Origin: Pseudomonas laurentiana
Lineage (GTDB): Bacteria; Pseudomonadota; Gammaproteobacteria; Pseudomonadales; Pseudomonadaceae
DNA length: 64,000 bases
Assembly: GCF_014648275.1 (NCBI RefSeq)
Contig: NZ_BMQU01000020.1
Span: 17,153 to 81,152 of the forward strand
Direction of reading: 5' to 3'
The first letter of the stretch is position 1. Each line of letters opens with the position of its first letter. This document shows positions 60,916-64,000 of this stretch, piece after piece. The notes under the pieces were generated by a model, which searched no databases, was not told where the DNA came from, and saw only the letters and a program-made list of their open reading frames with translations. The position numbers were made by a program, and so were the translations under genes.

Positions 60916-60960
60916 TGCTGTTGCGTGAACGACGGTGTCATAGGCCATTGTGGTCAGTTG

Positions 60961-61122
60961 CTAACGGCGCATGCCGATATGCGCAATACCGTCTTCCAGA
61001 TAGGCTTCACCTGCGACCTTGAAGCCATGGCGAGCGTAGTAATCCTGCAGATGCGCTTGCGCTGACAGGTACACCGGGACTTCGGGCCAGAGCTGCTCGG
61101 CGTGCTTCAGGCCTTGCTCCAT
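60961..61122 (-). pseudogene. elaA: elaA-type GNAT acetyltransferase, C-terminal remnant
   Basis: The 53 C-terminal residues of an ElaA-like acetyltransferase remain, from MEQGLKHAEQLWPE to the terminal AHIGMRR. The rest of the GNAT domain (about 95 residues with the acetyl-CoA site) is absent. The homology stops exactly at 61122, where foreign sequence starts with TGT. An ATG at 61179 inside the foreign DNA makes a 72-residue chimeric frame that could be translated but would not be a functional acetyltransferase. Confidence 0.85.
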
Positions 61123-61129
61123 TGTAGGT

Positions 61130-61258
61130 TCACAAAATAGGTGATAGGCCAGACCCCGTGAAATTGGAATCTTCGCCATTTTTTTTGTGAAATGAAGGGG
61201 TGCTTTTCACAGAAAAGCCGAGAAATCCCTACTCACCAATCACAAAAGTTGATTGGCC
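61130..61258 (+). repeat. iterated terminal sites resembling TnsB-binding repeats
   Basis: TCACAAAATAGGTGATAGGC (61130-61149) and TCACAAAAGTTGATTGGCC (61240-61258) agree at nearly all positions apart from a 2-nt gap. A weaker TTCACAGAAAAG lies at 61206-61217, and an inverted TTCACAAAAA near 61187-61196. Iterated sites at an element end are typical for transposases of the Tn7/Tn5053 type. Confidence 0.55.
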
Positions 61259-61796
61259 TGGAAAGGGCCGTTTACGACCGACGCGTGACTTTTCGGTAAG
61301 GGATGAGGAGTAGTCGCAGCGATCCTTTAGCTCCTAGTCTGGCGACCTTGGGTTCAGAATCCGACTGGCAATGCCCGCCGTCACTACTTCAGAGGAACCA
61401 GCTTCCTCTGCTGCCAAAATTGCGGGGGGCTCATGCTGGTACCCAGGCCCGACAAATGCGCAGTTGCAGCCCTCAATTGCAAGGCTATCCAAAGCGGCAC
61501 GCGTGTCAATCAAGATCTGATGCATGACGATGGCCGGCCTCACGGAGGTGAAACCGGAGATTCAGATTGACTAAACCGACCCCGTAGACACCAACCTCCA
61601 CGAAGGCCGCTATCGACCCAAAGCTGTCCTTCAAGAAAGGCAGCTAACGGCGAGAAGCGGTCATTTTGTATCTACAGGTTTCGGGGCGATTCACTCGTCT
61701 GATGCTCAGGAGCACCAGGATGGGCGTCAAGGAGGTGGTCATCTTGAGGTGGACTATGCTGACCAGTTGCTCTCAAATCTAATCGTGAGGTCCTCC
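61259..61796. other. noncoding stretch near the island end
   Basis: No well-supported gene in these 538 bp. A minus-strand frame of 63 codons (61334-61525, MHQILIDTRAALDSLAIEG) has protein-like composition but no good ribosome-binding site. It may be a remnant. The stretch probably holds the promoter for the cargo genes that follow. Confidence 0.4.
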
Positions 61797-62198
61797 ATGG
61801 CAAACCCCAATCTGCTGGCTCTATTCAGAGATGAAGTCCTTCTGACCGGGCCTGAAAGCTCCCTTCCAAGCAACCTATCTCAGTTCTGGCTTGAGGAGCT
61901 CCAGAGTCATCTGGAGAGGTATTTCGACGGTTTGAACTCGGATTCAGATGCAGAAGAGAAGGATCTCGACATCTCTCTCCCACTCGCAGCGATCATCCAC
62001 ATCTTGTTCGCGAAGAATGGTGGGGAGGAGATATCCGAGAGCTCTGAAAAGCTGTACGAGTATTTCCAAGACTACCGGCTCGAACTGGCCCTTGAAGAGA
62101 TCACGCGAAAGACTCATGTGGCTGCCGAGGCTGCAACCATTGAGACCATCTTCACCAACCGAGATGTCCTGGTGGAACAAGGCCCCCTTCTTCAATAG
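61797..62198 (+). CDS. hypothetical cargo protein
   Basis: 133-residue protein from ATG 61797 (MANPNLLALFRDEVLLTG), with GAGG six nt upstream; a GTG at 61749 is the alternative. It is acidic, with a DSDAEEKDLD patch near 47-56, and seems entirely helical. No membrane helix or signal is seen and I do not recognise the family. It lies 12 bp before the next gene, so both are probably one transcriptional unit. Confidence 0.6.
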   Translation: MANPNLLALFRDEVLLTGPESSLPSNLSQFWLEELQSHLERYFDGLNSDSDAEEKDLDISLPLAAIIHILFAKNGGEEISESSEKLYEYFQDYRLELALEEITRKTHVAAEAATIETIFTNRDVLVEQGPLLQ

Positions 62199-62210
62199 GT
62201 ACCTCCACCG

Positions 62211-63677
62211 ATGCCATCGCCGGCGGGCACGCTCCGAGGCATTGATGGAATGCATTTTGACGGCTGCCGAGATCAGCGAATGAAAGAAATTGCTGCGCCG
62301 ATGTTCGATCTAATCGCTTTGTCGCTTCCACGAGGGTTGGGGTTTGGGGACAGCCCGCCAGTAGGGGCATGGCTTAGTGAGGACGGAATTTCTTGTGCCG
62401 CTCTAACCCGAAATATCCATTCCGGCAGCTTCGGAATTGTCACCTTGCGGCGTCGTGTCGATAGCGTGTGGGTGCTCCTCAGCCATAGTGAGCGCACCAC
62501 TGGCGAGTCTGAAGCCCGCGCCTCAATCAGCCATTTTCTCTATACCCAAGCCCATCCGCTTCCACTCCCTTCAGGTGAACGACGACGTGCTCCTCTAAGC
62601 AGAATGGGTAAGCGCACACCAAGCGTGGTGTTCAAATCACTATTTGATCCAAGCCGCCGTATTGGGGCGTGGGCGCTGAATCAACTGTATCTCGCACTGC
62701 CATCCCCAGACAGAAATTGGGTTCCCGATTGCCAGACTGAGAATTTTCACACTCGCCTCTGGGAAGCCCACCTATTAGCGATTTTTCGTGAACAGGGACT
62801 CTTGGTCACCCAGCCTAAAGAATCACCCGATTTTCACATCGAGAATAGGCTGGGAGATGAGGCCTGGGTTGAAGCAGTGACAGCCAACCCGGAAGAGCGG
62901 TATGAGCATTTTGGCGCCTCGCCGGTCCCCCCACCCGCTGACCGACATGAGCGTTTCTTAGGAGCGGCTGCAGAAAGGTTTGCGAGGACCATCCAAAACA
63001 AATTGGACAAGCGTTACGAATCCCTACCGCACGTGGAGGGTAAGCCGCTCATTCTGGCCTTAGCCGATTTCCATGCGCCCAGTTCAATGCTGTGGAGCAG
63101 GGAGTCGCTCATCAGCTATCTCTATGGCTTTGCAGTTCACTCATCTGCGCATCGTGGTACGCACCTGATAACTGTGGAGGAAGAGACATCTCTGCTATCA
63201 GGGCGCCCCAACGGCCTATTTACGCTAATGGAAAATGCCCATCTTTCAGCGGTCATTTTCACCAATGCCTGCACAGTGCCAAAGCTCAGCCGAGTGCCGA
63301 TCTCAGGTGGAGCTCATCTAGACGGGTACCGATACTTGCGGTTTGGTGAGTTTTTCGACCGTTCTCCGGGAGCATCACGAGGTATCCCATTTCTGTTGGA
63401 TGTAGCGTCCAGCGACTACGGTCAGCTCTGGCCGCAATATGGCTACGAGCCGTGGTCTGCTGAAGTGGAGGTATTCCATAACCCTATGGCACTATACCCG
63501 GTGCCTAATGAGTTGATACCAGAAGTCACCCACTGGAGAGAAGTAAACGGAAGAGTCGAGTGCGAATCTTTCTTTGATGTATCCATACTCCGATCCAGAA
63601 CACTCGTCCTCAGTGCAAACGCTAAGGTTCCGTCACTCGATGAGTTGCTGACAGCAGCCAGTCCTCCAGAGCTCTGA
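62211..63677 (+). CDS. uncharacterised protein with PD-(D/E)XK-like core
   Basis: 488 residues from ATG 62211 (or 465 from ATG 62280). The region FHTRLWEAHLLAIF, then ESPDFHIENR and DEAWVEAVTANP, resembles the nuclease-fold order E...PD...E (Glu185, Asp207, Glu221). The Lys expected two residues after the second Glu is replaced (EAV). From memory, similar proteins in pseudomonads carry the misleading label 'glycosaminoglycan attachment site'. An N-terminal domain of about 120 residues and a C-terminal region of about 200 are unassigned. Function unknown. Confidence 0.65.
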   Translation: MPSPAGTLRGIDGMHFDGCRDQRMKEIAAPMFDLIALSLPRGLGFGDSPPVGAWLSEDGISCAALTRNIHSGSFGIVTLRRRVDSVWVLLSHSERTTGESEARASISHFLYTQAHPLPLPSGERRRAPLSRMGKRTPSVVFKSLFDPSRRIGAWALNQLYLALPSPDRNWVPDCQTENFHTRLWEAHLLAIFREQGLLVTQPKESPDFHIENRLGDEAWVEAVTANPEERYEHFGASPVPPPADRHERFLGAAAERFARTIQNKLDKRYESLPHVEGKPLILALADFHAPSSMLWSRESLISYLYGFAVHSSAHRGTHLITVEEETSLLSGRPNGLFTLMENAHLSAVIFTNACTVPKLSRVPISGGAHLDGYRYLRFGEFFDRSPGASRGIPFLLDVASSDYGQLWPQYGYEPWSAEVEVFHNPMALYPVPNELIPEVTHWREVNGRVECESFFDVSILRSRTLVLSANAKVPSLDELLTAASPPEL

Positions 63678-63812
63678 CGGCGGCGGGGTGGCCGCATCGT
63701 TGCCACGCAGGTAGATGAGAATTTCTCAGCAAGCTACCCAGCCAGGGGAAGGACATGAGATCCCCTGCGCAATTCAGGACCGTTGAAGCGTCACCTCTCT
63801 TCGGGTAAAAGC

Positions 63813-64000
63813 ATGACCGTCATACAACGCTACAACAGCGTCATACCCGAGAGCATAGGAAGAAAAATGTCGATCCAAGGACTAAAACGATACTTTGGAA
63901 ACAAGATTCACGCAGTGATAATGATGGCCCCGCTTAAGGAAACTCTGAAAAAGGCTTCGAGATTTGGTGAAATACCCGCCTCACAGGAATCGAACGGTTG
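63813..64000 (+). CDS. start of an unidentified gene, open to window end
   Basis: A frame beginning ATG 63813 (MTVIQRYNSVIPE) or, with a better ribosome-binding site (AGGAAG), ATG 63867 (MSIQGLKRYFGNKIHAVI) stays open to the last base. It is 62 or 44 codons long as seen. The protein is basic. I do not recognise it. Confidence 0.4.
   Translation, partial: MTVIQRYNSVIPESIGRKMSIQGLKRYFGNKIHAVIMMAPLKETLKKASRFGEIPASQESNG

Follow-up and report, generated by a model that had tools for sequence, protein, structure and literature searches.

Here, we showed that elaA of Pseudomonas laurentiana is interrupted by a Tn7-like transposon whose family has its home just downstream of gyrB. The window, meaning the whole stretch of DNA that was analysed, comprises 64,000 nt of assembly GCF_014648275.1 (contig NZ_BMQU01000020.1, positions 17,153-81,152, forward strand; contig C20 of genome G000 hereafter). 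Its position 61123 is one end of the transposon, and both ends show elaA as the landing place. Taken together, and leaving aside the reason for which elaA was entered, we give the Tn7-like nature of the element, its place in elaA and the gyrB home of its family a probability of roughly 0.93. The element is a further Tn7-like transposon, of a sort already described, and the unusual part is its place in elaA.

Table 1. Coordinates of the elaA remnant and of the Tn7-like element in the window and on contig C6 of the same genome.
Feature	Position	Strand	Basis
elaA C-terminal remnant (GNAT acetyltransferase)	60961..61122	-	Pfam Acetyltransf_10, E 2e-5; intact homologue in G096
Target-site duplication TCCAT (ATGGA on the other strand), 5 bp	61118..61122	.	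matched by ATGGA at G000:C6:203987-203991
Left part of the Tn7-like element	61123..64000	.	boundary comparison; runs past the contig end
Terminal TnsB-like site TTCACAAAATAGGTGA	61129..61144	+	matrix scan
Inverted TnsB-like site	61176..61191	-	matrix scan
TnsB-like site TTCACAGAAAAGCCGA	61206..61221	+	matrix scan
Weaker TnsB-like site ATCACAAAAGTTGATT	61239..61254	+	matrix scan
149-aa ORF	61749..62198	+	no match in Pfam, NCBIfam or PADLOC
488-aa PD-T7-1/PD-T7-5-like protein	62211..63677	+	PADLOC E 8.9e-61 and 1.3e-28
Edge of a multicopy repeat	63938..64000	.	63 bp exact with the C6 end, almost exact with three further contig ends
tnsA, first from the C6 end inward	C6:204778-205461		PF08722, 29.1 bits (cut-off 26.5)
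tnsB, 677-aa ORF between tnsA and tnsC	C6:205367-207400		position and sub-cut-off matches
tnsC	C6:207397-208356		PF05621 TniB, 121.3 bits (cut-off 22.4)
tniQ	C6:208432-210348		PF06527, 60.8 bits (cut-off 27), plus HTH_17

In the window, the elaA homology ends sharply and a TGT terminus follows, just as a preliminary description of this DNA had claimed: positions 61118-61141 read TCCAT followed by TGTAGGTTCACAAAATAGG, with TGT beginning at 61123. A search of the 5,209,936-base genome found the 19-mer of this end at one place only and its reversed control nowhere. The other end was found on contig C6 of the same genome, at C6:203992, by a search with up to 3 mismatches. As the reversed control also gave one match in the genome at this tolerance, the pattern alone does not prove the C6 end, which is identified by its elaA flank and by the duplication. 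Indeed, ahead of it stands the coding sequence for the N-terminal part of ElaA, as far as ...GHELM, and the junction reads GAGCTGATGGA followed by TGTAGGTTCACAG, that is the N-terminal part of elaA, ATGGA and then the element end. On the opposite strand, the window flank starts with ATGGAGCAAGGC and encodes MEQGLKHAEQLWPEV... through to the end of the protein. Comparison with a relative in which elaA is uninterrupted (G096), a check that had been proposed, gave an intact ElaA across the site (GHELMEQGLKYAEEFWPEV); with respect to this protein of 150 residues, the break in elaA falls just behind the codon corresponding to residue 97. Since ATGGA flanks both ends and elaA is continuous in G096, the duplication is a perfect one of 5 bp, and TCCAT is thus the target duplication it had been taken for. 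An ATG provided by the left end is in the reading frame of the elaA remnant and gives a 72-aa ORF (window 60961-61179), so that a short ElaA fusion could be made.

Position 61123 is also a boundary in other genomes. The window stretch 60956-61320 was matched in 79 of 149 same-genus genomes (P. laurentiana included), mostly over the elaA part only. In G045, G072 and G077, a 100% match to the element part sets in at query base 166 or 168, base 168 being window 61123, with other DNA ahead of it; as these matches begin sharply there, 61123 is the true boundary of the element. A scan of 84,980 species genomes for the end 19-mer returned 12 records, all from Pseudomonas, and in all 12 the flank before the end differs from the elaA flank of P. 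laurentiana. Ten of these records are identical over the 150 bp compared; L039 and L045 differ. An assembly error, or a later recombination mimicking a transposon end, might be suspected from the location of the two ends on separate contigs. However, on both contigs the same 5 bp mark the passage from the appropriate half of elaA to the element, and other genomes have this end too, with a sharp limit; we therefore hold such an artefact to be highly improbable.

The left end carries four TnsB-like sites (Table 1). Those at 61129, 61206 and 61239, all on the forward strand, correspond to the repeats that had been pointed out at the terminus, near 61208 and at 61240-61258. All five seeds of the matrix were sites of this element, three of them from the window, which makes the site scores circular there; in the first 60 kb of the window, one TnsB-like match has equal strength. 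For such predicted sites, their spacing is better evidence than their scores. Of the 13 sequences that show the left-end pattern, six (P. laurentiana included) have all four sites, near bases 7, 54, 84 and 115; four sequences have three of these sites and one has two, and the spacing is another in two. The latter, L079 and L083, lie 5-6 bp after gyrB and, from their sequence, look like right ends. The element thus has the inverted TGT...ACA ends of Tn7-like transposons, with repeated TnsB-like sites that are assigned by likeness and predicted to be bound.

No transposase gene is visible in the window, as had been remarked, but this does not hold for the element: a tnsA-tnsB-tnsC-tniQ operon adjoins the C6 end, on the far side where such genes were to be looked for. 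Together with the inverted TGT end and the duplication, it bears out the earlier view of a Tn7-like terminus in elaA. Pfam recognised a TnsA-like endonuclease, a TnsC-type AAA ATPase and a TniQ/TnsD-type selector of 638 aa. The tnsB ORF matched rve (20.9 bits), rve_3 (21.6 bits) and Mu-transpos_C (20.5 bits), each under its cut-off, and was also under the NCBIfam cut-offs; its name relies on these matches, on its position and on a Pseudomonas plasmid operon of the same order that is annotated TnsA, DDE transposase, TniB and TniQ. A genomic island moved by a tyrosine integrase seems unlikely, tnsABC-tniQ adjoining the C6 end and the duplication being only 5 bp long.

The element measures at least 37.3 kb: 34,415 bp lie on C6 and 2,878 bp in the window, and a gap in the assembly separates the two parts. 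Contig C20 ends at window position 64000. Because C20 and C6 end in the same multicopy repeat, the assembly breaks there and the two contigs cannot be joined across the gap. About 63-70 bp are common to five contig ends, namely the window end and those of C6, C8, C19 and C33, and the shared repeat is probably an insertion sequence. Since the Tn7 convention places tnsA at the right end, the C6 end with its tnsA is the right end and the window end the left one. The same definition of the right end as the tnsA side is given in the available part of PMC12452197.

The element carries copper-resistance cargo and phage-defence-like genes. On C6, the cargo ORFs resemble what we take to be a multicopper oxidase and a CopB-like protein, together with a two-component pair and an efflux set of the CusCBA type that has a CusF domain, followed presumably by a metal P-type ATPase and then a Sir2 protein; part of these ORFs were scanned with Pfam, and names without a family match are putative. 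Near the contig break lies a second AAA ATPase of 410 aa (AAA_22; L050:9013-10242, equal to G000:C6:237010-238242).

At the left end, the 488-aa protein resembles, on its sequence, the anti-phage defence proteins PD-T7-1 and PD-T7-5. It aligns with their PADLOC models over 313 and 275 residues, respectively, and differs from them by its first 155 residues, which are uncovered. With this protein, a scan of viral contigs returned no relative, and among solved structures there were only two matches, both weak (E 0.25). The gene had been a candidate TnsE by its position, a candidacy rejected on account of the PD-T7-1-like match. The block 61123-63938 is full-length, at 99.3-99.9% identity, in eight of the 12 records with the 19-mer (L036, L038, L040, L041, L043, L044, L046 and L047); L042 and L037 are truncated where the available sequence stops, and L039 and L045 are without the block or have it in pieces. 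In G323, whose element lies at gyrB, likeness is confined to the first 504 bp of the 1,519 bp compared, a stretch in which the PD-T7-1-like gene was not seen.

The right end reveals the home site of the family. Its 19-mer, with at most 1 mismatch, was found in 16 of 399 same-genus genomes (G000 included), at 17 places. In 14 of these 16 genomes, this tnsA-side end follows the gyrB stop codon at a distance of 4-7 bp. The gene before it ends in ...GDAVEPRR[DE]FIESNAL[AS]V[AS]NLDF in all 14, and the one copy scanned, from G072, is GyrB (TIGR01059, 1003.8 bits for a cut-off of 882.4). Given these 14 of 16 right ends, we consider gyrB as the home site of the family and elaA as an off-site, which fits the earlier remark that elaA is not known as a Tn7-family site. 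The two genomes with a right end outside gyrB are G000 (elaA) and G227, in which the two ends are on separate contigs with flanks also present on plasmids. Matching 5-bp duplications were found in nine of the ten genomes with both ends, eight at gyrB and G000 in elaA; those of G227 are mismatched. The left-end pattern occurs in 22 of the 399 genomes, with varying flanks. We had also considered glmS (attTn7) as the target behind terminator-like flanks, a candidate rejected once the right-end flanks showed gyrB.

Tn7 itself has TGT ends, repeated TnsB sites, a 5-bp duplication, a characteristic gene order and an attachment site at glmS. The element described here shares with the E. coli transposon the TGT ends, the repeated TnsB-type sites at both ends, the 5-bp duplication and the tnsA-tnsB-tnsC-target selector order, as well as, in its family, a right end placed beside the 3′ end of a housekeeping gene. 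It differs in its home site, which is gyrB and not glmS (14 of 16 genomes), and in the elaA location of the P. laurentiana copy. As for tnsE, PF18623 (TnsE_C) had no match in the G000 genome, control genomes being equally silent. A copper Tn7-like element of P. syringae was reportedly described by Aprile et al. in 2021. In the parts of the sources available, tnsABCD genes are described with metal-resistance genes in P. putida W619 and KT2440 (PMC3056050), and cluster I of P. putida HB3267 is described as a Tn7-like transposon (PMC4731212). Compared by description only, these heavy-metal islands are like our element in their Tn7-type genes and, for W619 and KT2440, in metal resistance, and the same partial descriptions name no gyrB target. 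A literature word search, mostly of journals readable without subscription, found gyrB unnamed as a Tn7-like home site in the titles and abstract beginnings among the matches listed. Two surveys, PMC8649781 and PMC10293859, do not use the word gyrB in their main text; in the available part of PMC5385486 on the GInt island, gyrB appears only as a control and marker gene.

By analogy with the enzymology of the Tn7 family, TnsA and TnsB would have moved the element into elaA by cut-and-paste, 5 bp being duplicated. The target would be chosen by TnsC and the 638-aa TniQ/TnsD-type protein, and TniQ may recognise the 3′ end of gyrB, just after which comparison shows the usual insertion to lie. Altered proteins do not explain the choice of elaA, because G077, homed at gyrB, has TnsABC and TniQ identical to those of G000. 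Indeed, the right-end 6,870 bp of G000 differ at 2 bases from those of G072, at 1 from G077 and at 6 from G045, all three copies being at gyrB; TnsA, TnsC and TniQ are identical in the three, and TnsB differs by one residue in each of G072 and G045. A gyrB-like pseudo-site in elaA was also tried as a candidate and rejected, the best of 40 offset-and-length combinations being reached by 1.2-4.1% of background positions. Local alignments of the elaA flanks with the gyrB end were unconvincing, with scores matched by 3.6% and 45% of random pieces.

The gyrB locus of G000 offers one possible reason. On contig C1, gyrB is directly followed by TTCACAAAAAAGCTGCGTGTTTTCACACATAAGTGACCGGCC. This is a decayed right end that has lost its first six bases (L103; z 23 against shuffles) and in which two TnsB-like sites are kept as judged by eye. 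Target immunity is known in Tn7, and by such immunity the decayed end may have discouraged insertion at the home site, the element then landing off-site in elaA. We regard as plausible, though less likely than not, that the TnsB sites of the relic immunise gyrB and that a gyrB-homing element with unchanged proteins was thereby diverted into a coding gene; this blocking would be the case of one genome, G000. Right-end-like DNA (z above 10) was detected in 8 of 28 scored gyrB-downstream regions, G000 included (two of the 30 fetched were unscored), a sample biased by the ranking of the regions on similarity to the G000 gyrB site. In G285 (L106), two right ends stand in tandem at gyrB, 1,277 bp apart (G285:C4:120304 and 121581), with TCAGAGA before each; occupancy of gyrB is thus not an absolute block.

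Alternatively, the elaA copy could be due to a TnsE-like replication- or plasmid-directed pathway or to low-level random insertion, which is compatible with the transposon reading and to which we give a little less than an even chance. We rate such leakiness or other pathway somewhat above blocking by the relic as the reason for elaA. The elaA flank is not convincingly gyrB-like, and the same route may have put relatives into conjugative plasmids: plasmid pBYT5-1 has a relative with ends 2.4 kb apart and a CTTGC/GCAAG duplication at a place other than gyrB, pBYT1-1 carries the same insertion, and other plasmid copies exist. As relatives occupy such non-gyrB places in plasmids, off-site insertion does happen. 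However, two plasmid elements with both ends present (L109 and L111) have duplications that do not match, and the left-end gene, a possible TnsE by position, is PD-T7-1-like. TnsE_C was silent in this genome but equally so in the control genomes, so that its silence does not establish the absence of a tnsE. Besides its two ends, the 2.4-kb element of the two conjugative plasmids (L108, L113) comprises tnsA and one hypothetical gene; it is perhaps an internal deletion form. We find it unlikely that elaA is a second genuine attachment site, picked by another selector whose gene would lie in the unassembled middle. The assembly does indeed lack part of the element, and many Tn7-like elements have more than one selector according to the available part of PMC10293859, but in the other 15 genomes with a right end that end is never in elaA (it is at gyrB in 14 and elsewhere in G227), and the C6 proteins scanned, which represent part of the C6 ORFs, include a single TniQ.

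Our results suggest that, in Pseudomonas, Tn7-like elements often insert at the 3′ end of gyrB. They also show, from both ends of the P. laurentiana copy, that a homing Tn7-like element, with operon DNA almost identical to that of gyrB-homed copies, can enter an ordinary chromosomal gene. The elaA and gyrB copies therefore constitute a clean comparison for studying how strict homing is and whether a home site is protected by leftover ends.
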